Source of the DNA: Agromyces rhizosphaerae | GTDB taxonomy: Bacteria; Actinomycetota; Actinomycetes; Actinomycetales; Microbacteriaceae | Direction: 5' to 3' | NCBI RefSeq assembly: GCF_027925245.1 | Contig: NZ_BSDP01000001.1 | Span: 2,418,001-2,482,000 of the forward strand | DNA length: 64,000 nucleotides | Shown here: positions 5,915 through 55,542 of the stretch, in pieces | Layout: the number at the start of each line of letters is the position of its first letter | How positions within the stretch are numbered: the stretch's first letter is position 1 | The notes under the pieces: model-generated | Seen by the model: only the letters and a program-made list of their open reading frames with translations | Databases searched by the model: none | Told to the model about the DNA's origin: nothing | Made by a program: the position numbers and the translations under genes

Positions 5915-7978
5915 TCACGGGTCGATCACGACCACGCAGGTGTAGGTGCCCGGCTCGAGGTCGTTGATCGTGACGCTCGGGTCGTCCTGCATGGCCGAGA
6001 GCGGGATGTCCGGATCGGAGTCCGGATCCTCCTCGGTCGCGTCGCACTCGATGCTCGAGAACGTCCCGCCGTCGACCTGCGAGTCGACGCTCACCGTGAG
6101 GTTCGTGAGCGGGATGTTCTTGAACGTCTTGACGGCGCCCGCGCTGGTGTCGGCGCAGTCGGTCGCCGTCGCCTCGCCCACCGCAGCGGTCTGCGCCTGC
6201 GGCGTGGTCGGGTCGAGCACGTATCCGTTCGGGATCGTCTCGGTCACCGTGTAGTTCCCGGCGACCGCGCTCACGACGAGGCCTGTCACGCAGGCGACCC
6301 CGTTCGCGTCGGTCTGCACCGAGATCGGCTCGCTGAGACCGCCGCCCGTGATATCGAAGGTGACACCCTCGTGGGCGTGGTCACCCGAGCCGTCCGCCGC
6401 GTGCTTGCGCGTCTTCACGATCTTGATCGAGCCCCGTTCGAGCTCGTTCACGAAGGTGCACGTCACGGTCTCGCCCGCGCTCAGGCCGATGGACGAAGGA
6501 TCGGACGAGTCGTCGCACGTGGCCGACGTGAGGTTCCAGTTCGCCGGAACGGTCTCGTCCACGTCGTACGTGCCCGGTGTCAGGCCCGCGTAGGTGTTCG
6601 AGTCCTTCCCACCGTCGCCCGATCCGGTCGTCGTCAGGGTGAAGCTCGCGTCGGGCAGCGTGTTCGACGTGAAGTCGAACGCGCCGGAGCCGTCGGTCGT
6701 CACCTTCTCGACCACGATCGTGCCGCGCGCCTGGTTGGTGAACGTGCAGTCGACGATCTGGTTGGCGTTCGTGAGGTCGAACGTCGCCGTTCCGGCCAAC
6801 TCGTTCTCCACCGGCGTGATGTTCGTGCTGGCGGAGCAGTCGATGTCGACCAGGTCCCATCCGCTGGGCGGCCCCGACTCGGTCACCGTGAGCCCGTTGC
6901 CGAAGAACACGTTGTCGTACGTCACCGATTCGCCGTCGGCCAGGCTGAACGTGGGATTCGTCCCGTCGTTCAGGGTGGCGAACGCCGTCGTGAAGTCGAA
7001 GTCCGTCGTGTCACCCGTCGGATCGGTCACCTTCCGCACGATCACCTTGGCGCAGTTCGTCAGGCCGATGTCGGTCGGCGCGATGAAGTCCTTCAGTGCG
7101 GCCGTGAACGAGTCGGAGGACCGGCTCTTCAGGTACGCGCTGCCGAACGAGACGCACTGGGCGTTGCCGACGATGGCCGAGAAGTCGACCGTCGCCTCAC
7201 CGAAGGTCCGCGGCGAGATCGGCCCGAGCCCGTCGGAGTCGCCGGCCGCAATGGCCGTGGTGTTGATCGACCCGGTCGCGTCGCCCGCAGCGGTCAGGTC
7301 CTCACGCAGGCCCCAACACGGCAGCTTGTTCGACGAGACGCAGTCGTCCTTGCTCACCGGCGTACCGTTGAAGTCGGAATCGGTCAGCCACCTCGCGAGG
7401 AACAGCTCCGGGTTCGTACCGCCCTGCGCGAGGTCGTACTGCAGCAGCAGGTCGGCCTCGGTGCGCACCGGTGTGACGCCGTTCGCCGAGGTCTCCTCCG
7501 ACTGGTTGAACTCGAAGTCCATGTTCGTCGTGCCGGACGGCTCCTGGACGCGGTGCCAGTAGAGGTGCAGGAAGTCGCCGGCCGGCGTCTCCTCGAGGAA
7601 TCCGCCGAAGGTCAGCAGGTCGCTCTTGTTCGGCGGGATGCTGCCGTCGACCACGGTCGGCACGGCGGTGTCCTCCTTGGAGCCCTGGCCGAACGAGTCG
7701 TCGTTCGCGCCGGTCGGCTCGTCGGGCTGCCGGATCTCGGTGACATCCTCCCAGTCGAACGAGGGGTCGGCGTGATCGGCGACGAGGTTCGCGTCCTCGT
7801 CGATCTCGAAGTTGCTGCCGGCCAGGCTGACGAGGCCGTGCGCCGCGAATGCCGGGCCGGCGACGAACGCCGTGCCGACGAGGGCGAGGCCGGCGCCGAC
7901 CGCGGTGAGTCGACGGAGGCCGCGCCGTCTGCGGGCGCCGGGTGGAAGGTGTCGTTGGGCGATCTCGGACGTGGGCAT
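5915..7978 (-). CDS. Secreted prealbumin-fold (SpaA/DUF5979-like) repeat surface protein
   Basis: 687 aa with a signal peptide: a basic start (GARRRRGLRR), a hydrophobic core and cleavage near GPAFAAHG. Residues about 40-330 form an N-terminal region with paired cysteines. Residues about 330-687 hold four repeats of the prealbumin-like fold of Gram-positive pilin/adhesin stalks, each starting with a strand such as KVIVRKVTD, GTIVVEKVTT or GSIKIVKT, and several with E-box motifs (TVTESG, YDVDET, YTVTET) that form isopeptide crosslinks in relatives. There is no LPXTG signal or C-terminal membrane helix; the protein stops at VVVIDP. It is probably released or held non-covalently. GGAGG lies 5 nt before the ATG. 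Confidence 0.82.
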   Translation of the reverse strand: MPTSEIAQRHLPPGARRRRGLRRLTAVGAGLALVGTAFVAGPAFAAHGLVSLAGSNFEIDEDANLVADHADPSFDWEDVTEIRQPDEPTGANDDSFGQGSKEDTAVPTVVDGSIPPNKSDLLTFGGFLEETPAGDFLHLYWHRVQEPSGTTNMDFEFNQSEETSANGVTPVRTEADLLLQYDLAQGGTNPELFLARWLTDSDFNGTPVSKDDCVSSNKLPCWGLREDLTAAGDATGSINTTAIAAGDSDGLGPISPRTFGEATVDFSAIVGNAQCVSFGSAYLKSRSSDSFTAALKDFIAPTDIGLTNCAKVIVRKVTDPTGDTTDFDFTTAFATLNDGTNPTFSLADGESVTYDNVFFGNGLTVTESGPPSGWDLVDIDCSASTNITPVENELAGTATFDLTNANQIVDCTFTNQARGTIVVEKVTTDGSGAFDFTSNTLPDASFTLTTTGSGDGGKDSNTYAGLTPGTYDVDETVPANWNLTSATCDDSSDPSSIGLSAGETVTCTFVNELERGSIKIVKTRKHAADGSGDHAHEGVTFDITGGGLSEPISVQTDANGVACVTGLVVSAVAGNYTVTETIPNGYVLDPTTPQAQTAAVGEATATDCADTSAGAVKTFKNIPLTNLTVSVDSQVDGGTFSSIECDATEEDPDSDPDIPLSAMQDDPSVTINDLEPGTYTCVVVIDP

Positions 7979-8241
7979 CGTTGCCTCCGATGGTGCGGAA
8001 CGTCACCCGGCCCGGGCAGGCCGGATGGGTGATCCTGAGGTCGGGTGGAGGCACCGGAGAAGGTCGCGCTGAATGGCCTCCCGATGGGTGTCGGGGAAGG
8101 TCCATCTGCCGTCGGGTCACGACTCCCGAAGCGTACTGCGGCGGACCCGGCACCCGCTACCCCAAACTGAGGAAAGCTCGAAAACTTGCAGTGAGTGGAA
8201 ACTCGGCCGTCCGCACCGCCCACGCGCACCCGCGTGCTCGC

Positions 8242-11118: not shown

Positions 11119-11709
11119 GTGCTCAAGCTCGTCGTGCTGATCTCCGGCGGCGGAACGAACCTCCGCGCCCTGCTCGAGGCGTCGGAGGACGCCGAGTATC
11201 CCGCCCGGGTCGTCGCGATCGGCGCCGATCGCGAGGCCGACGGGCTGGCCCTGGGGGAGGAGTTCGGCATCCCCGCCTTCACGGTGCCCTTCCGGGGCGC
11301 GGCCGATCGCGACCGCTGGGGCGAGGAGCTCCTCGCGCAGGTGCGCTTCTGGGAGCCCGACCTCGTCGTGCTGAGCGGCTTCATGCGCATCGTGCCCCCG
11401 GTGATGGTCGATGCGCTCTCGCCCCGCATGATCAACACGCACCCCGCGTACCTGCCCGAGTTCCCCGGGGCGCACGGCGTGCGCGACGCGCTGGCCGCCG
11501 GCGTCACCCAGACCGGGGCGAGCCTCATCGTGGTCGACGACTCGGTCGACGGCGGCCCGATCATCGCGCAGGAGCGCGTGCCGGTGCACGCGGGCGACAC
11601 CGAGCAGACCCTGCACGAGCGCATCAAGCCCGTCGAGCGCCGCCTGCTCGTGCAGGCCGTGATCGACATCGCCAACGGAACCGTGAACCTGGAGGACCTC
11701 GACGCATGA
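11119..11709 (+). CDS. purN: Phosphoribosylglycinamide formyltransferase
   Basis: 196 aa. [14 protein letters not shown] is the GAR-binding N-terminus; [16 protein letters not shown] carries the catalytic Asn and His, and [11 protein letters not shown] the catalytic Asp. It transfers a formyl group from 10-formyl-THF to GAR in purine synthesis. It starts with GTG 11119, 7 nt after a TAGGCT box and with no Shine-Dalgarno, so it is probably leaderless. It overlaps purH by ATGA. Confidence 0.97.
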
Positions 11710-13307
11710 GCGGACCGAGCCACGACCACTCCCTCTACCGCGAGCGCGACCTCGTGCCGGTGCGACGCGCACTCGTCTCCGTCAGCGACAAGTCCGGGCT
11801 GCTCGAGCTCGCCGGCGCGCTCGCCGCGGCGGGCGTGGAGATCGTGTCGACCGGGTCGACCGCCGCGACGATCCGCGACGCGGGGCACGACGTGACCGAC
11901 GTCGCGAGCGTCACCGGGTTCGCCGAGGCGCTCGACGGCCGCGTGAAGACCCTGCACCCTGCGGTGCACGCGGGCCTCCTCGCCGACCTGCGCCTCGAGC
12001 ACCACGAGGCACAGCTCGCCGAGCTCGGCATCGCCGCGTTCGACCTCGTCGTGGTGAACCTCTACCCGTTCCGCCAGACGGTCGCCTCGGGTGCGCCCGC
12101 GCTCGACGTCGTCGAGCAGATCGACATCGGTGGGCCGGCGATGGTGCGCGCCTCGGCGAAGAACCACGCCAACGTCGCCATCGTCGTCTCGCCCGAGCGC
12201 TACGGCGAGATCGCCGAGGCCGTGGCCGCCGGCGGCACCACCCTCGCGCAGCGGCAGCGCCTCGCCGTCGAGGCGTTCCGCCACACCGCCGGGTACGACG
12301 TCGCCGTCGCCTCCTGGCTCGGCAACGTCGTGGCGCCCGACGACAAGGGCACGGGCTTCCCGGGCTGGGTCGGCGGCACCTGGGACCGTGCGCAGTCGCT
12401 GCGCTACGGCGAGAACTCGCACCAGGCCGCGGCGCTCTACGCCACGCCCGAGGGCCGGGGCATCGCGCAGTCGGTGCAGCTGCACGGCAAGGAGATGTCG
12501 TACAACAACTACGTCGACGCGGATGCCGCGGTGCGGGCCGCGTACGACTTCGACGAGCCCGCCGTGGCGATCATCAAGCACGCGAACCCGTGCGGCATCG
12601 CGATCGCCGGGCCCGGGGCATCCGACCCCATCGCGAGCGCCCACGAGCGCGCCCACGCCTGCGACCCGGTGTCGGCGTTCGGCGGGGTCATCGCCGCGAA
12701 CCGCACCGTCACGCGGGCCATGGCCGAGACCGTGAGCGGCATCTTCACCGAGGTGCTCATCGCCCCGGCGTTCGAGGCCGAGGCGGTCGAGGTGCTGACG
12801 CGGAAGAAGAACATCCGCCTGCTCACGCTGCCCGAGGGATTCCAGCCCACCGTGCTCGAGCAGAAGCAGGTGTCGGGCGGGCTGCTGCTGCAGCAGGCCG
12901 ACCGCGAGTTCGCGCCGTTCTCGTCGTGGACGCTCGCGGCGGGGGAGCCCGCCGACGATGCGCTGGCCGCGGAGCTCGAGTTCGCCTGGCGCGCGTGCCG
13001 CGCGGTCAAGTCGAACGCCATCCTGCTCGCCTCGGGCGGCGCCTCGGTGGGCGTCGGCATGGGCCAGGTCAACCGCGTCGACTCGTGCCGGCTCGCGGTC
13101 GAGCGGGCGGGGGAGCGCGCGAGCGGCTCGGTCGCGGCATCCGACGCGTTCTTCCCCTTCGCCGACGGGCCGCAGATCCTCTTCGACGCGGGCGTGCGCG
13201 CGGTCGTGCAGCCCGGCGGCTCGGTGCGCGACGAGGAGGTCGTCGCCGCCGCGAAGGCGGCGGGCGTGACCATGTACCTCACCGGCGAGCGGCACTTCTT
13301 CCACTGA
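11706..13307 (+). CDS. purH: Bifunctional AICAR formyltransferase / IMP cyclohydrolase
   Basis: 533 aa, normal length. The N-terminal MGS-like cyclohydrolase domain ([33 protein letters not shown]) is followed by the AICAR transformylase domain ([46 protein letters not shown]). It catalyses the last two steps of IMP synthesis using 10-formyl-THF. It is translationally coupled to purN. Confidence 0.98.
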
Positions 13308-14566: not shown

Positions 14567-15826
14567 GTGACCGACTCCGTCGAGCTTCCCCCCGCCCGAA
14601 CGATCGTGTCGGGCGACCGTGCGCACCGGCAGCGCGTGCTCGCCGTGTTCGCCTCCGCGGGGGCGGTCGCGGCCATCGCACTGGGCGCGGCGCTGCTCGG
14701 GGTCTTCGTCGCGGGCGGCCAGGCGCCTACCGTGTTCACCCAGGTCGGCGGCCACTTCCTGCTGCTCGCGACGCTCGCCTTCCTGCTGCTGTCGGCCGCG
14801 AACGCGGTCGGGGCCACGCGCGCCTGGTTCCTCGCCGTCGCCGCGGGACTCACCTCGGCGGGTCTCGCCGCGCTCGTGGGCACGACGATCACCGTGCTCG
14901 CAGGCGGAGCCGCGCCCGACCTGCGCATGTTCGCCTTCGTGCTCGGTTCGCTCGTGGGCATCAACCTCGTCTTCATCGTCTCCGCCGTGCTCGCCGAGGT
15001 GTTCGTCGCCCCGCGCGTGCTCCGGGCCGTCGAGGCGCACGCGCCGCGCCGCGGCTCCGCCGAGCAGCGGCTGGCCCTCGTGCGCATCCCCGCGTCGAAC
15101 CTCGACGAGGCCGAGCTCACGCACGTCGAGCGCGAGCCGGTCGACGCCGAGCTGGCCGACGAGCAGTGGGACAACTACTGCGCGGCGCTCGTCGCCGAGG
15201 GCTGGCGCACGGTCGAGGTCGACAGCGCGCCCGACCTCGCCGACTCCGTCTTCGTGGAGGACCAGGTCGTGCTCTTCGACGACCTCGCGGTGATCACGCG
15301 CTCGGGCGCCGAGTCACGGCGCGCCGAGGCCGAGGCCGTCGAGCGCGTGGTGCGCTCCCTCCGCGGAGTGCAGGTGGCCCGCATCGACGAGCCCGGCACC
15401 CTCGACGGCGGCGACGTGCTGAAGGTCGGTCGCACGGTCTACGTCGGCAGTTCCTCGCGCACCGACGCCGAGGGCATCCGCCAGCTGCGCGAGCTCCTGT
15501 CTCCGCGCGGCTGGACCGTGGTCGCGGTGCCGGTGACCCGCACGCTCCACCTGAAGGGCGCGGTCACCGCGCTGCCCGACGGCACCATCCTCGGTCACCC
15601 CGACCTGCTCGCGCACCGCGACCTGTTCCCGCGACTCCTCGAGGTGCCCGAGCCCGCGGGCGTCGCGGTCGTCGAACTGGCCGACGACACGGTGCTCATG
15701 GCGGCCTCCGCCCCCGAGTCCGCGGCCATGGTGTCGGGGCTCGGCTATCGCGTCGTCACGGTCGACATCAGCGAGTTCGAGAAGCTCGAGGGCAGCGTGA
15801 CCTGCCTCTCGGTACGGGTACGCTGA
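14567..15826 (+). CDS. Dimethylargininase-like hydrolase fused to an N-terminal membrane domain
   Basis: 419 aa from GTG 14567, 6 nt after a TAGGCT box (probably leaderless). Residues about 20-150 contain four hydrophobic segments. From about 165 to the end is a guanidino-modifying hydrolase domain of the DDAH type: RIPASNLDEAE, EQWDNYCAAL, ADSVFVEDQVV, LDGGDVLKVG, HLKGAVTALPDG (His328) and the terminal CLSV (Cys413, nucleophile). DDAH splits methylated arginines to citrulline and methylamine; related enzymes use arginine. Classical DDAHs are soluble proteins of about 255 aa, so the membrane part is an addition; with four segments the catalytic domain would stay cytoplasmic. Confidence 0.85.
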   Translation: MTDSVELPPARTIVSGDRAHRQRVLAVFASAGAVAAIALGAALLGVFVAGGQAPTVFTQVGGHFLLLATLAFLLLSAANAVGATRAWFLAVAAGLTSAGLAALVGTTITVLAGGAAPDLRMFAFVLGSLVGINLVFIVSAVLAEVFVAPRVLRAVEAHAPRRGSAEQRLALVRIPASNLDEAELTHVEREPVDAELADEQWDNYCAALVAEGWRTVEVDSAPDLADSVFVEDQVVLFDDLAVITRSGAESRRAEAEAVERVVRSLRGVQVARIDEPGTLDGGDVLKVGRTVYVGSSSRTDAEGIRQLRELLSPRGWTVVAVPVTRTLHLKGAVTALPDGTILGHPDLLAHRDLFPRLLEVPEPAGVAVVELADDTVLMAASAPESAAMVSGLGYRVVTVDISEFEKLEGSVTCLSVRVR

Positions 15827-15845
15827 ACCGGTCCGCTCCGAACCC

Positions 15846-15875
15846 TTGCACACTCGCGAGAAGCGGGCATATCCT
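15846..15875 (+). promoter_or_regulatory. Promoter for leader peptide and ABC exporter operon
   Basis: TTGCAC (15846-15851) and TATCCT (15870-15875) are spaced by 18 nt, the best -35/-10 pair I see in the window. Transcription would start near 15882, leaving a leader of about 300 nt before the first ABC gene and about 70 nt before a small ORF. Confidence 0.65.
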
Positions 15876-15950
15876 GTAAGGCTGCTCGCCGCCGTCCACC
15901 AGATGCGCGCGGGCACAGGGACATCCACCACAAGCGCCCGGGAGGAAGCG

Positions 15951-16037
15951 ATGAAGACGACGTATGGCATGACTGCCGGCACCTGGACAGCCGGCGGGGT
16001 CGTCGCGCTCATTCGACCCCGGCGCCGCGCGGCCTAG
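15951..16037 (+). CDS. Candidate 28-aa leader peptide upstream of the ABC exporter
   Basis: ATG 15951 is preceded by GGAGG at a spacing of 5 nt, stronger than most ribosome sites nearby. The 28 codons encode [10 protein letters not shown]..., ending in an Arg-rich segment (IRPRRRAA) and TAG 16037. Codons rare in this window (tat, act, aca, att, cga) are concentrated here. The ORF sits alone in a 361-nt gap behind a good promoter and overlaps several hairpins. This looks like a translated attenuator of the kind known for bmrB before the B. subtilis bmrCD exporter genes. The peptide itself has no recognised homologue to me. Confidence 0.55.
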
Positions 16038-16112
16038 CACCGCGCCCACGGCCGCACCGCGCGGCCCACTCCCTGCGGCACCGACCGCAGTCCGGCGGGA
16101 CGACCTCGTCCC
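15975..16112 (+). promoter_or_regulatory. Hairpin series overlapping the leader ORF (candidate attenuator)
   Basis: Successive stems read by eye: 15975-15980 with 15990-15995; 15995-16002 with 16014-16021; 16024-16032 with 16057-16065, which includes the leader stop codon; 16073-16078 with 16085-16090; 16097-16103 with 16106-16112. A stem within the ORF would be melted by a translating ribosome and the third would be blocked by a ribosome near the stop. No clear U-tract follows any stem, so the terminator is not proven. Confidence 0.4.
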
Positions 16113-16187
16113 CGTCGATCTCCCACCCCTCGCTCGATACGGATGCCCGCGCACGCGCGCGTCCGACCGCCCAGAAGGATTCCCGTC

Positions 16188-18140
16188 ATGCCCGCCATCA
16201 CGGCCGACGACAGACCCGATTCCGCGTCCGCGCCGCAGCGCCTGAGCACGCCCCGCACGCTGCTGCGCCTCTACCCCTACGCCCGTCCCGCGGTGCCGTT
16301 CCTCGTGCTCGGCATGGTCGCGGCGCTGCTGGCGAGCCTCGTCGCGCTCGCGATCCCGCAGGTGCTCCAGGTGCTCGTCGACGGTCCGCTCTCCGAGGGC
16401 GACCCCGACCAGATCGTGCCCGCGGTGCTCGTCGTGCTCGCGCTCGGCGTCACCGAGGCCATCATGATCGCGCTCCGGCGCTGGTTCGTGCTGACCCCGG
16501 GCACGCGCGTCGAGGCAGACATGCGCAACGCGCTGTACGCGCAGCTGCAGGACCTCCCGGTGAGCTTCCACGACCGCTGGCCGAGCGGGCAGCTGCTCTC
16601 GCGCGCGGTCTCCGACCTCGGCCGCATCCGTCGCTGGCTGTCCTTCGGCCTCGTGCTGCTCGTGGTCAACCTCGTCACGATCGTCGTGGGCGTCGGCATC
16701 CTGATCTGGATGAACTGGCTGCTCGGCCTCGTGTTCATGGTGCTCTCGCTGCCGCTGTGGATCATCGGGTTCCGGTTCGAGGGCCGGTACTCGGAGGTCG
16801 CGCGGCGCAGCCAGGACCAGGCCGGCGACCTCGCGACCGCGGTCGAGGAGTCGGTGCACGGCATCCGCGTGCTGAAGGCGTTCGGACGCGGCAAGCACGC
16901 GCTCGGCACGTTCACGGCGCAGGCGGAGGAGCTCCGCGGCACCGAGATGGAGAAGGCGAAGCTCGAGGCGGGCATCTGGCTCTGGCTGCTGCTCATCCCG
17001 AACGTCGCGCTGGCGGTCTGCCTCGTGCTCGGCGTGTGGCTCGCGTCGGTCGACGTGATGAGCGTCGGCCAGGTCGTCGCGTTCTTCGCGACCGCGACCG
17101 TGCTGGCGTGGCCGATCGAGTCGATCGGCTTCCTGCTGGCGTTCTCGCTCGACACGCGCACCGCGACCGACCGCTTCTTCGAGGTCATCGACGAGGTCAA
17201 CCAGATCACCGACCCGGAGCGGCCGTCGACCATCCGGGCGCCGCGCGGCGAGCTGGCGTTCGAGGGCGTGCACTTCCGGTACGCGGATGCCCCCGGGCGC
17301 ACGCCCGACCTCATCGACGGCGTCGACCTGCGCCTCGAGCCCGGCGAGACCATGGCGCTGGTGGGCCTCACCGGCAGCGGCAAGTCCACGCTGACGTCGC
17401 TGACCACGCGCCTCTACGAGGTGACGGGCGGCGCGGTCACGCTCGACGGCGTGGACATCCGTGCGCTCGGGCGCGAGGAGCTGCGCACGCACGTCGCGAT
17501 GGCGTTCGAGGACGCCACGCTGTTCTCGGCGTCGGTGCGCGACAACGTGCTGCTGGGCCGCCCCGAGCTGGCGGGCGACGAGCCCGCCGTGCGCGCCGAG
17601 GCCGACGCGGTGCTCGCGCAGGCGCTGCAGATCGCGCAGGCGCAGTTCGCGCACGACCTGCCCGACGGCGTCGACACCAAGGTCGGCGAGGAGGGCATGA
17701 GCCTGTCGGGCGGCCAGCGCCAGCGGCTCGCGCTCGCGCGCGCCGTCGCGGCCGACCCCGCCGTGCTCGTGCTCGACGACCCGCTTTCGGCGCTCGACGT
17801 CGAGACGGAGGCCCTCGTCGAGGACGCGCTGCGCGAGATCCTCGCGACGACCACCGCGCTCGTGGTGGCGCACCGCCCGTCGACCGTCATGCTGGCCGAC
17901 CGGGTCGCGCTGCTCGAGGACGGGCGCATCACCGCCGTCGGCACCCACTCCGAACTGCTCGCCTCGAGCGAGCACTACCGCTTCGTGATCACGTCCCTGG
18001 AGGACGAGGAGCGCGAGCGGAAGGCCGAGGAACTCGACACGGCCGCCATCCCCGTCATCGGCCTCGATCCCCGCGACGAGGCCGCCGGGGCCACCTCGCA
18101 GTCCGCGAGCACGAACGAGCACCAGGAGGTGACCCGATGA
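16188..18140 (+). CDS. ABC exporter half-transporter with degenerate catalytic site
   Basis: 650 aa; ATG 16188 is chosen because AGAAGGA precedes it. Residues about 35-320 are the six-helix exporter membrane domain; the ATPase follows with Walker [10 protein letters not shown] (Lys399), signature LSGGQ and Walker B VLVLDD (Asp530), where the catalytic Glu is replaced by Asp531. That substitution marks the degenerate subunit of heterodimeric multidrug exporters such as TM287 or BmrC. It overlaps the partner gene by ATGA. Expected role: export of drugs or lipophilic compounds; substrate unknown. Confidence 0.93.
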
Positions 18141-19942
18141 GCGTCGTCGGCGTACAGGGCGAGGAGCGCCACGACTTCACCAAGGAGGAGTCGCGGCAGA
18201 TCCGCCGGCGCTCGCTGCGCCTGCTCGGCTCGCTGCTGAAGCCCCTGCGGTGGCAGGTGGCGTGGACGGCGCTGGTCGTCACGGTCTCGACCGGCGCCCA
18301 GGTCGCGGGCCCGGCGCTCATCGGCTACGGCGTGGCCGAGGGGCTGCCGGCCCTGCTCGACCAGGACTGGCTGCCGCTGGCGTGGGCCGGTGCGGCCTAC
18401 CTCGCGACCGCGGTCGTGGGCGCGTTGCTCGTGGCCGTCTACATCCGGCAGTCGGCGCGCATCAGCCAGGCGATCCTGATCGACCTGCGCAAGCGCGTCT
18501 TCCTGCACACCCAGAAGCTGAGCCTCGAGTTCCACGAGTCGTACACGTCGGGCCGCATCATCTCGCGCCAGACGAGCGACCTCGACGCGATCCGCGAGCT
18601 GCTCGACTCGGGCATCAACCAGCTCGTGCAGGGCGTGCTGTACATGACGTTCACCGCGATCGCGCTGGTCGCGCTCGACTGGCAGTCGGGGCTCGTGCTC
18701 GCCGTGGCGCTCGTGCCGCTGTTCGTGCTCACGCGCTGGTTCCAGCAGCGCTCGCAGGTGCTGTTCCGGCGCTCGCGCGAGGCATCCGCCAAGCTCATCG
18801 TGCACTTCGTGGAGACCATGACCGGCATCCGCGCGGTCAAGGCGTTCCGCAAGGAGAAGCGCAACGAGAAGGAGTTCGGCGACCTGGTCGAGGACTACCG
18901 CGACGTGAACGCGAAGGTCATCCAGGTCTTCGGCGTCTACGACCCGGGCCTCGTGTTCATCGGCAACGTGACGGTCGCGATGGTGCTGCTCTGGGGCGGC
19001 TTCCGCGTGGTCGACGGCTCGCTCGCGATCGGCTTCCTGCTCGCCGCGGTGCTGTACACCCGTCGGTTCTTCGACCCGATGGAGGACATGGCGATGTTCT
19101 ACAACTCGTACCAGTCCGCCGCATCAGCGCTCGAGAAGATCTCGGGCGTGCTCGAGGAGCGGCCGAGCGTGCCCGACCCGGTTCGCCCGGTCGACCTCTG
19201 GAGCGCGCGCGGCGACATCGCGTTCGACGACGTGGAGTTCGCCTACACCGACGACCGGGTGGTGCTGCCGGCCTTCGACCTCGCCATCCCGGCGGGCCAG
19301 ACCATCGCGCTCGTCGGGTCGACCGGAGCCGGGAAGTCGACGCTGGCGAAGCTGATCTCGCGGTTCTACGACCCGAGCCGGGGCGCGGTGCGCCTCGACG
19401 GCGTCGACCTGCGGGACCTCCACCCGAAGGACCTGCGCCGCGCGATCGTCATGGTCACGCAGGAGGCCTACCTGTTCTCGGGCTCGGTGGCCGACAACAT
19501 CGCGCTGGGCAAGCCCGACGCGAGCTTCGACGAGATCGTGGCGGCGGCGAGGGCGGTCGGCGCACACGAGTTCATCGAGGGCCTGCCGAACGGGTACGAC
19601 ACCGACGTGAACAAGCGCGGTGGCCGGGTGAGCGCCGGGCAGCGGCAGCTCATCTCGTTCGCGCGCGCGTTCCTCGCCGACCCGGCGGTGCTGATCCTCG
19701 ACGAGGCGACGAGCTCGCTCGACATCCCGAGCGAGCGCGCGGTGCAGGAGGGGCTGACCACCCTGCTCGCCGACCGCACCGCGGTGATCATCGCGCACCG
19801 GCTCTCGACGGTCGCGATCGCCGACCGCGTGCTGGTCATGGAGTGGGGCCGCATCGTCGAGGACGGCTCGCCGGCCGAGCTGATCGGCGGCGAGGGCCGG
19901 TTCGCCCGGCTGCACGCGGCCTGGCGGGACAGCCTGGTCTAG
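18137..19942 (+). CDS. ABC exporter half-transporter, partner subunit
   Basis: 601 aa; the ATG overlaps the previous stop and AGGAGGT stands 6 nt before it. Membrane domain residues about 40-330; ATPase with Walker [10 protein letters not shown], Walker B VLILDE (Asp522, Glu523 intact) and an altered signature VSAGQ (498-502) instead of LSGGQ. The defects of the two subunits are complementary: the degenerate site pairs the Asp531 Walker B of the first subunit with this altered signature, while the other site is fully canonical, as in heterodimeric exporters of the TM287/288 and BmrCD type. Confidence 0.94.
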
Positions 19943-35356: not shown

Positions 35357-36598
35357 ATGCGGAAACTCGGCATCGTGGCGCTCGGCGCCGCTGCTGCGCT
35401 CGCCCTCGCCGGTTGCGCCTCGGGAGGCGACGCTGCTTCCGAGGCGGAGCCCGAGACCGGTGACCTCCGGGTCTGGCTCGTCGGCGCGGACACGCCCCAG
35501 GACGCTCGCGACTACCTCGTCGAGACGTTCGAGGCGGAGAACCCCGGCTCGACCCTCACCATCGAGGAGCAGTCGTGGGACGGCCTGGTCGACAAGCTGA
35601 CCACCAGCCTCTCCTCGTCCGACAGCCCCGACCTGGTGGAGTTCGGCAACACGCAGGCCCCCGCGTTCACGTCGGTCGGCGCGCTGCTCGACATCTCCGA
35701 CGAGTACGAGGCACTCGGCGGCGACGACCTGCTCCCCGGCTTCGTCGAGGCGGGTTCGTACGACGGCGCCTTCTACGCGGCTCCGCTCTACGCGGGTGCA
35801 CGCGTCGTGTTCGCCGACCCGGCGTACGTGTCGGAGGCCCCGGCCACCCTCGCGGACTACGTCGCGCAGGCCAAGGAGCTCGCCGCCGACAACGACGGCA
35901 AGTCGGGCATCTACTTCGCCGGCCAGGACTGGTACAACGCCCTGCCCTTCATCTGGGAGGCCGGCGGCGAGGTCGCCGTTCCCGAGGGTGACGGCTGGGA
36001 CGCGCAGCTGAGCTCGCCCGAGTCGATCGAGGGCCTGGAGATGGTCCAGGACCTCATGCTCAACGCCTCGGTCGCGCCCAAGGACGGCGACAACGCCGAG
36101 CCGTGGACCCCGTACTGCGAGGGTGACGCGATCCAGTTCTCGTCGCCGAACTGGGCCCTGGGCCTGGCCAGCGGCTGCGAGACCGAGAACGCGCCGGCCG
36201 CTCCGTTCGTCTACGCCCTCCCGGGTGCCGACGGCGGCGCCGCGCAGGCCTTCGCGGGTGGCTCGAACATCGGCGTCTCGGCCAAGTCCGAGTACCCGGA
36301 GCTCGCCAAGAGCGCCCTCGCGATCATCCTGAGCGACGAGTTCCAGACGATCTACGGCGAGAACGGCCTCATCCCGGCCAAGCAGTCGCTCGCGAGCACC
36401 CTCGGCGACAGCCCGGAGGCCCAGGCCTTCACCGCCGCCGCGGGCAGCGCGAAGCTCACCCCGGCATCGCCGAACTGGGCCGAGGTCGAGGCCTCGCGCG
36501 TCCTGGAGGACTTCTTCGTGAAGATCGCCCAGGGCGGCGACGTCGCCGAGCTCGCGGCCGAGGTCGACGAGAAGATCGAGGACATCCTCAACGGCTAG
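35357..36598 (+). CDS. Sugar ABC transporter substrate-binding lipoprotein (family 1)
   Basis: 413 aa; ATG 35357 follows AAAGGA. Signal peptide with lipobox LALAGC, so the mature protein is lipid-anchored at about Cys20. A typical family-1 fold opens with LRVWLVGADTPQDARDYLVETFEAE. Neighbouring GH3 hexosaminidase, ROK kinase and nagB suggest that it binds GlcNAc-containing oligosaccharides (chitobiose or wall fragments); ligand specificity is inferred. Two hairpins separate it from the permease genes. Confidence 0.92.
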   Translation: MRKLGIVALGAAAALALAGCASGGDAASEAEPETGDLRVWLVGADTPQDARDYLVETFEAENPGSTLTIEEQSWDGLVDKLTTSLSSSDSPDLVEFGNTQAPAFTSVGALLDISDEYEALGGDDLLPGFVEAGSYDGAFYAAPLYAGARVVFADPAYVSEAPATLADYVAQAKELAADNDGKSGIYFAGQDWYNALPFIWEAGGEVAVPEGDGWDAQLSSPESIEGLEMVQDLMLNASVAPKDGDNAEPWTPYCEGDAIQFSSPNWALGLASGCETENAPAAPFVYALPGADGGAAQAFAGGSNIGVSAKSEYPELAKSALAIILSDEFQTIYGENGLIPAKQSLASTLGDSPEAQAFTAAAGSAKLTPASPNWAEVEASRVLEDFFVKIAQGGDVAELAAEVDEKIEDILNG

Positions 36599-36608
36599 TC
36601 CCCGCACC

Positions 36609-36644
36609 CCGGGTCGGCGGCGCCCACACACGCCGCCGACCCGG
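36609..36644 (+). terminator. Stable hairpin after the substrate-binding protein gene
   Basis: A 14-bp stem (36609-36622 with 36631-36644) with an 8-nt loop starts 10 nt after the stop. It is a likely 3' stabiliser or partial terminator that raises binding-protein mRNA over permease mRNA. Confidence 0.65.
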
Positions 36645-36687
36645 AACCGGCCGCCACGCGGCCAGCACCCGGGCCCGACGGCCCGCC

Positions 36688-36739
36688 GATGCCCGGCACG
36701 ACCGGCACCACACGTCGTGCCGGGCATCCCTGTTCTTTT
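36688..36739 (+). terminator. Intra-operon Rho-independent terminator before the permease genes
   Basis: A perfect 15-bp stem (36688-36702 with 36714-36728), an 11-nt loop, then CCTGTTCTTTT: the only clear T-rich tail in the window. Located 58 nt before the permease start, it should reduce read-through. Confidence 0.8.
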
Positions 36740-55326: not shown

Positions 55327-55396
55327 TCCCACGTTCCTCGCCCGAGCGACAGGTGCGGCACCCGGGTGCGCACCGGCATCCGTTGCTATGCTGACA

Positions 55397-55470
55397 GGCG
55401 TCGCGACTGGCGTTGAGGTGGGTGACCACCGGGGAGCGACTGGCACGCATCCGACCGTTCGCCTGGGCCG
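55397..55470 (+). ncRNA. ZTP riboswitch (pfl motif) upstream of glyA-folD
   Basis: The conserved blocks of the pfl/ZTP aptamer appear in order: CGCGACTGGCG (55402-55412), a GTGGGTG...CACC pairing leading into ACCACCGGGGAGCG (55425-55438), and CGCCTGGGC (55460-55468). ZTP riboswitches sense ZMP/ZTP, which build up when 10-formyl-THF is short, and turn on glyA, folD and purine genes; glyA and folD follow here. A compound hairpin (55475-55480 with 55503-55508, inner stem 55483-55487 with 55493-55497) before the AAGGAG site is the likely expression platform. TATGCT (55387-55392) is the probable -10. Confidence 0.9.
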
Positions 55471-55542
55471 GAGCGGATGCCTCGGCGCGAGTCGCCGCGG
55501 CAGCATCCACCACCGGTATCGCGTGTCATGAAGGAGCCAGCC

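Follow-up and report, generated by a model that had tools for sequence, protein, structure and literature searches.

An upstream open reading frame kept in frame before a predicted heterodimeric ABC exporter pair of Agromyces: a candidate translation-responsive leader

In Bacillus subtilis, bmrB, a short leader open reading frame (ORF) with rare codons, precedes the heterodimeric multidrug ABC pair bmrCD and carries an intrinsic terminator and an antiterminator inside the ORF (PMC4191407). In Escherichia coli the short ORF tnaC is followed directly by a rut (Rho utilization) site, which a ribosome at the leader stop codon can screen, and tryptophan makes TnaC stall by way of conserved residues (PMC8429421). 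In E. coli toiL-topAI, an upstream ORF (uORF) reports translation stress, Rho acts downstream, and a single uORF can report several drug classes (PMC12121999). Among actinobacteria, the uORF of whiB7/wblC is described as antibiotic-responsive, acts on a transcription factor gene by means of a Rho-independent terminator (PMC11550727), and Rho acts in Mycobacterium tuberculosis leaders that hold uORFs (PMC12810186). The attenuated leader of the ABC transporter PatAB in Streptococcus pneumoniae has a Rho-independent terminator, the abstract of that report mentioning no uORF (PMC4319486). The leader studied here lies in a 64,000-nucleotide (64 kb) stretch, hereafter the window, of the 3.6 Mb single-contig genome of Agromyces rhizosphaerae (NZ_BSDP01000001.1, positions 2,418,001 to 2,482,000). 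In it a 361-nt gap (15827-16187) separates a dimethylargininase-like gene, which ends at 15826, from the ATG (16188) of the first of two ABC exporter genes, and this gap holds a promoter, a GGGAGG site, an ATG ORF of 28 codons (hereafter the uORF) and hairpins.

We find that comparison with relatives supports the promoter, the uORF, selection on its frame and the co-occurrence of the uORF with a C-rich spacer; it is from this that we infer translation of the uORF and regulation of the genes downstream. Judged by sequence comparison, a translated uORF very probably acts in cis on the exporter genes. Like bmrB, the leader places a short ORF with rare codons before a predicted heterodimeric ABC pair, and BmrB is a good functional parallel, compared by description and not by sequence; unlike in bmrB, the frame and not the peptide is selected, and a terminator like that inside bmrB is not seen here. 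The order of short ORF and rut site recalls tnaC, the rut likeness being one of C-rich composition only, whereas the Agromyces peptide is not conserved. With toiL the locus would share the action of Rho downstream of a uORF; a pairing of the uORF with the downstream ribosome-binding site, as in toiL, was not found in silico. It likewise shares an actinobacterial uORF with whiB7/wblC, but neither their Rho-independent terminator nor a controlled transcription factor gene, and with patAB the position before ABC transporter genes. No published report of such a leader in Microbacteriaceae was found in a search that left most subscription literature outside.

Of the 60 genomes searched for the Agromyces set, 58 gave a match at E 1e-200 or better, and each of these contributed a single locus. 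An earlier note, made from the letters of the window, had described the 28-codon ORF with its GGAGG site and suggested an alignment of relatives; that alignment bears it out, since a Shine-Dalgarno-led ATG ORF of 26-34 codons (loose rule) is present in 57 of the 58 loci, the sole miss, L117, being a divergent copy (57% identity) of G036. Counts depend on the rule. Under a strict rule (GGAGG, ATG, 18-46 codons) the uORF is found in 54/58 loci, which is beyond chance when set against 0.3% of dinucleotide shuffles; reverse complements and stretches further upstream give 0/58 each. Outside the genus, 72 Microbacteriaceae loci were sampled, a single locus from each of 71 genera and a further copy from G185; by the strict rule 33 of them have the uORF, compared with 0.7% of shuffles and 1/72 reverse complements. 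Under a looser rule outside Agromyces, 49 of 88 loci, drawn from the 129 genomes with a match among 150 Microbacteriaceae genomes, carry a uORF, and 40 of 72 groups have at least one such locus.

Divergence within Agromyces has left the frame intact. We compared 23 pairs, which took in 46 of the 57 loci without using any twice. Spacer divergence guided the choice, since picking pairs by uORF similarity biases the ratio of non-synonymous to synonymous differences (pN/pS). All seven insertions or deletions within the uORF are multiples of three, as against 3/56 in the spacer and 1/16 in the 5' untranslated region (5'UTR), together 4/72; at that background the probability of seven out of seven is ~2e-9 by our own arithmetic. 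Substitutions per site amount to 0.092 in the uORF, 0.115 in the 5'UTR and 0.190 in the spacer. Open frames are common in GC-rich DNA and the window leader, taken singly, shows no unusual folding strength, as would suit a functionless short ORF that arose by chance; given the presence counts against shuffles and controls and the in-frame indels, such an origin is hardly credible.

The peptide, in contrast, drifts. uORF pN/pS is 0.93 (bootstrap 0.74-1.20), and in the 12 of the 23 pairs for which the ABC gene was available (protein-guided alignment of the gene) it is 0.77 against 0.21 for that gene. Because the indels are in frame and pN/pS is nevertheless this high, the frame is under selection and the peptide hardly so; the codon-level conservation that the earlier note had looked for is thus not borne out. 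Constraint is strongest in codons 10-18 (0.64; codons 2-9 1.17, codon 19 to the end 1.06). What selection appears to maintain is the act of translation together with some nucleotide-level feature, not a defined peptide.

A loose pattern is nonetheless shared by 49 representative peptides (40 groups and nine picks, four of these from Agromyces). Shuffling within peptides predicts 26 Thr in residues 2-5, where 84 are seen; Gly occurs 32 times at residues 13-16 against 16.5, and Arg and Pro are more frequent late in the peptide; Thr-Asp/Glu stands at residues 3-7 in 12/49 peptides against 2.9 by shuffling, and macrolide-type R/K-x-R/K motifs are mildly enriched (19/49 against 14.2, standard deviation 2.6). 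A functional small peptide made from the uORF would account for its conservation, for this pattern and for the lower ratio of codons 10-18, but the wide divergence of the peptide sequences between genera, and a pN/pS so far above that of the ABC gene, render it very unlikely. A conserved arrest peptide of the TnaC type was, on the same two counts, not found. The Thr-rich start may resemble the leader peptide of a chloramphenicol-resistance gene, a likeness to which we give no weight as evidence. It may provide a drug-stall context (PMC12121999 cites stalling by chloramphenicol after Ala, Ser or Thr) or may simply be a low-structure start.

The cluster of rare codons to which the earlier note had drawn attention is genuine as to rarity, TAT, ACT, ACA, ATT and CGA occurring 0.6, 0.9, 0, 0.3 and 1.9 times per 1000 codons in seven window genes, but a regulatory role for it is not supported, since relatives do not keep it: L061-L063 have GAT in place of TAT as codon 5 and lack Trp12. 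In 39/57 Agromyces uORFs the third codon is ACA. Rare codons (<4 per 1000) make up 19% of the window uORF, 12% of Agromyces uORFs on average and 1-2% of the two ABC genes; because the other two frames of the window uORF give 24-27%, this uORF is intermediate between coding and non-coding sequence.

The stop codon of the uORF is followed by a spacer rich in C and poor in G. RNA of this composition is a known signature of Rho loading, and a 2023 paper in iScience reportedly treats Rho and uORFs. The genome has a rho gene. When both strands of the 64 kb are scanned in 150-nt windows, 99.96% have a smaller C minus G than the window spacer, and the 57 Agromyces spacers lie at a median percentile of 98.7, with 89% above the 95th; in Agromyces the excess peaks in the first 10 nt past the stop (0.36), the place that the rut site occupies behind tnaC (PMC8429421). 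By composition alone, the sequence after the stop fits a rut site that begins at the leader stop codon. Among other genera the spacer goes with the uORF: C minus G averages 0.18 in 37 uORF-bearing genera (35/37 above 0.1; g83, with a 31-nt spacer, omitted) and 0.034 in 34 genera lacking the uORF (8/34), Fisher p 5e-10 with relatedness uncorrected and with unlike stretches measured, the spacer in the former and the last 135 nt in the latter. For loci with GC content >0.66 the values are 0.20 (26 with uORF) and 0.05 (20 without). In the window, 25 crude leaders, that of the uORF included, average 0.023 (standard deviation 0.082). Two other gene gaps of the window, 36598-36688 (+, 0.200) and 7978-8072 (-, 0.177), are equally C-rich and might be further Rho-type leaders.

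Because uORF and C-rich spacer occur together and intrinsic terminators are missing, we favour a Rho-dependent output, on which our confidence is evenly balanced. RNA polymerase would start at the conserved promoter and a ribosome would load at the strong site of the uORF. During free translation the ribosome would finish at the TAG and leave, exposing a C-rich spacer of ~150 nt, and many transcripts would be terminated by Rho ahead of the first ABC gene or soon after its start. Were uORF translation slowed or blocked, for which ribosome-targeting drugs are the most plausible cause and starvation the alternative, the ribosome would stay on the uORF and more transcripts would read through into the exporter genes. 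We infer the Rho-dependent output, the slowing of the ribosome as input and the sign of the response. As a whole, the explanation that the uORF, by way of Rho, makes transcription of the exporter operon depend on how the ribosome advances is the best that the comparison yields, with about an even chance of being correct. That the family at large uses a translation-stress switch, in which the frame and the Thr-rich start are kept and Rho acts on the uORF-linked C-rich spacer, is a more doubtful extension.

Were the coupling to Rho correct, these bacteria would tune an exporter to the working of their ribosomes and need no dedicated regulator protein for it, and the uORF peptide itself would hardly matter. 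The exporter is near-universal in the family and many copies carry the leader; for the study of uORF-Rho coupling in GC-rich bacteria, the genera that have or lack the uORF and its C-rich spacer form a natural experiment.

Does the RNA fold into a switch? Hairpins starting within the ORF, as the earlier note had seen them, are present, but taken alone the window leader folds unremarkably (z -1.20; its spacer -1.63); over 20 of the 57 Agromyces rows mean z is -1.03 for the spacer, -0.18 for the uORF and +0.67 for the 5'UTR. The covarying hairpins that it had predicted are seen only in part, for P3 and P1; within Agromyces, comparison supports P3 and, more weakly, P1. P3, the best hairpin past the stop, begins at offset 14-18 in 42/57 Agromyces leaders and at 12 in the window. 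In an alignment (A1) of 37 distinct Agromyces rows with 26-29-codon uORFs, from which the window and the three relatives closest to it are excluded, as is L108, judged unalignable, 96.4% of P3 cells are paired, with A-U replaced by C-G in 6 sequences and G-C by A-U in 2; a hairpin of -8.9 kcal/mol or lower stands at this place in 88% of leaders against 16% of mononucleotide shuffles. A1 overall (P2 and P3) surpasses every shuffle in three of five measures. A second alignment, A2, holds 45 of 53 distinct rows (without L061-L064, L076, L079, L105 and L106). At the 5' end lies P1, in which 18 cells have changed on both sides where shuffles give 6.3; the window itself shows no simple hairpin of five or more pairs at that place. 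RNAalifold alone recovers P3 and neither P1 nor P2. The P4 region was compared with mononucleotide shuffles, the observed mean omitting L098, a row without hairpin. Consensus folding of the full leader is uninformative because the spacers do not align, and pair probabilities averaged by distance from the stop are blurred by indels.

The place and covariation of P3, and the overlap of P2 with the end of the uORF, invite a classical attenuator of the BmrB, whiB7 or trp type, in which the position of the ribosome selects between terminator and antiterminator and P3 would be an unusual terminator, one that lacks the U tail. When the RNA is folded free of ribosomes, the arms of P3 pair with the uORF at a mean of 0.18, and actinobacterial uORF attenuators with a Rho-independent terminator are known (PMC11550727). 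However, the stretch 15700-16300 contains no intrinsic-terminator-like site, the longest T run in the spacers of seven leaders is 2-3, so that no U-tailed terminator is seen, a counterpart of P3 was not detected in other genera, and P3 rises by >0.2 between a ribosome modelled at the start and one at the stop in only 11/57 leaders (pseudoknots and co-transcriptional folding lying outside the model). A mechanism of this kind is therefore unlikely. Because the intrinsic terminator was looked for and not found, we do not class the leader as a BmrB-type attenuator; of the BmrB-like attenuator that the earlier note had proposed for the ABC pair, the leader ORF stands and the terminator-antiterminator switch is not supported.

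Alternatively, ribosomes on the uORF could alter access to the binding site of the first ABC gene, reinitiation or mRNA stability, with no premature termination. The uORF starts with ATG in 57/57 Agromyces loci behind a near-invariant GGAGG, whereas the ABC gene starts with TTG or GTG in 50/57 (ATG in the window), which would suit such control, as does toiL, which acts through a downstream binding site (PMC12121999). ABC starts in relatives were assigned by rule, taking the in-frame start farthest upstream that has a purine-rich site close to the match; they may err by some codons, and spacer lengths with them. Predicted access to the Shine-Dalgarno of the ABC gene is, however, independent of ribosome position, and a spacer of ~150 nt is, in our judgement, long for coupling; we consider translational control improbable.

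A coupling through Rho also has evidence to answer. By the looser rule 39/88 loci outside Agromyces lack a uORF, the promoter motif was not found in 17 of the 49 that have one, and 2 of the other 24 crude window leaders are equally C-rich. The spacer is not open, folding somewhat better than shuffles, and P3 and P4 may hinder the loading of Rho. A stall near the start of the uORF would, unlike in tnaC, leave the region past the stop uncovered. Two of the five A1 measures fail against shuffles (both-sided pairs 68/500, further pair types 476/500), sliding A1 by -2 yields as high a count of both-sided cells (12), P1 is without a predicted pair in RNAalifold, and in other genera the region past the stop is no more stable than shuffles (percentile 0.46). 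Since a ribosome modelled at the start, middle or stop of the uORF moves P3 only from 0.67 to 0.75 over 57 leaders and leaves access to the ABC Shine-Dalgarno at 0.48-0.50 throughout, no structural switch is seen.

Transcription of the leader would start at the promoter that the earlier note had read as TTGCAC-18-TATCCT, which is present and conserved: TANNCT stands at the same 18-nt distance from the -35 element in 57/57 Agromyces leaders with a uORF, the -10 element having been located by a pattern requiring TA..CT followed by GGCT. A consensus promoter scan reported nothing at the 9-of-12 threshold, so the call rests on conservation. The 15-mer TANNCTGNAAGGCTG has 1 exact occurrence in the 3.6 Mb genome and 3 at no more than one mismatch (5 for a reversed control pattern). 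Outside Agromyces the promoter motif lies 35-110 nt before the uORF in 32/49 uORF-bearing loci. The start region GNARGGCT also follows the -10 element in several loci lacking a uORF and may be a start-site feature, the target of an unknown factor or an RNA element.

The leader looks specific to Microbacteriaceae, because five other Micrococcales families, sampled at 22 loci, show neither the promoter pattern nor a comparable leader. The short ORFs with a plausible site in those 22 loci are one of 18 codons with ATG (L228) and GTG ORFs in L218, L223, L225 and L232. L218, L223 and L225 (one other Micrococcales family, f8 g92) share a conserved 17-residue GTG mini-ORF, VLVASEHRxxRGTAPAQ, upstream of a relative of the first ABC gene, possibly an independent leader. 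Other ABC loci of the host genome have the uORF in 0/6 cases, a control of effectively three genes because the match begins near the protein start only in L004, L005 and L006.

Table 1. Features of the leader and the exporter genes (window coordinates)
Feature	Position	Strand	Basis
-35 element TTGCAC	15846..15851	+	TTG at the same place in 57/57 uORF-bearing Agromyces leaders
-10 element TATCCT	15870..15875	+	TANNCT across the genus
Conserved start region GTAAGGCTG	15876..15884	+	GGCTG in 56/57 Agromyces leaders (L076: GGCTC)
Shine-Dalgarno of uORF, GGGAGG	15940..15945	+	GGAGG columns 98-100% conserved in 57 Agromyces
uORF, 28 codons and TAG	15951..16037	+	frame conservation, presence counts
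Possible helix P2	15997..16035	+	3' half of uORF to stop codon; genus counterpart 77.6% of cells paired, weak
C-rich, G-poor spacer, rut-like composition	16038..16187	+	C 0.487, G 0.273
Hairpin P3, GGCCGC-ACCGC-GCGGCC	16050..16066	+	12 nt past stop; counterpart covaries in 37 Agromyces leaders
Hairpin P4, CTGCGG-CACCGA-CCGCAG	16073..16090	+	predicted; nearby hairpins beat mononucleotide shuffles genus-wide
Predicted spacer hairpin	16093..16117	+	folding of the window
Predicted spacer hairpin	16140..16165	+	folding of the window
Shine-Dalgarno of first ABC gene, AGAAGGA	16173..16179	+	read from the sequence
ABC half-exporter 1	16188..18140	+	Walker B ends LDDPLS; motif read by eye
ABC half-exporter 2	18137..19942	+	Walker B ends LDEATS; motif read by eye

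The two ABC genes, which overlap by ATGA, encode adjacent half-transporters, each with a membrane and an ATPase domain (PF00664 and PF00005). Protein 1 has Asp at the expected position of the catalytic Glu, and the signature motifs, read by eye, are LSGGQ in protein 1 and VSAGQ in protein 2; judged by these motifs the pair, a putative heterodimer, has one degenerate ATP site. Such asymmetry is typical of heterodimeric exporters, for example BmrCD, TM287/288 and TmrAB. The best bacterial structure match of protein 1 is TM_0288 among the matches listed, and that of protein 2, among 60 structures listed, is 5mkk_A (E 2e-101), followed by 7m33_D, YheH (E 2e-80); among the matches listed no NCBIfam model reached its cut-off for either protein. 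Of the named relatives, an uncultured Agromyces (L009) is closest, its first ABC protein being 94% identical; contigs of Agromyces cavernae, humatus and luteolus are also among the named matches. At E 1e-150 or better the exporter gene is found in 129/150 Microbacteriaceae genomes and 74/85 genera.

Upstream of the leader, the dimethylargininase gene (14567-15826, +) matches NF045660 above cut-off over residues 170-418, behind an N-terminal extension of ~170 residues with hydrophobic membrane segments recognised by eye. In two metagenome-assembled genomes, L020 (Rhodoluna) and L021, an ORF ending in GERHFFH or SERHFYH stops just before the ABC gene, with a short leader that lacks the uORF; its end resembles that of window ORF 11706-13307, which we take to be purH. 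Further along the window, a ZMP/ZTP riboswitch lies at 55393-55475 (+), scoring 48.4 bits against a gathering score of 39.

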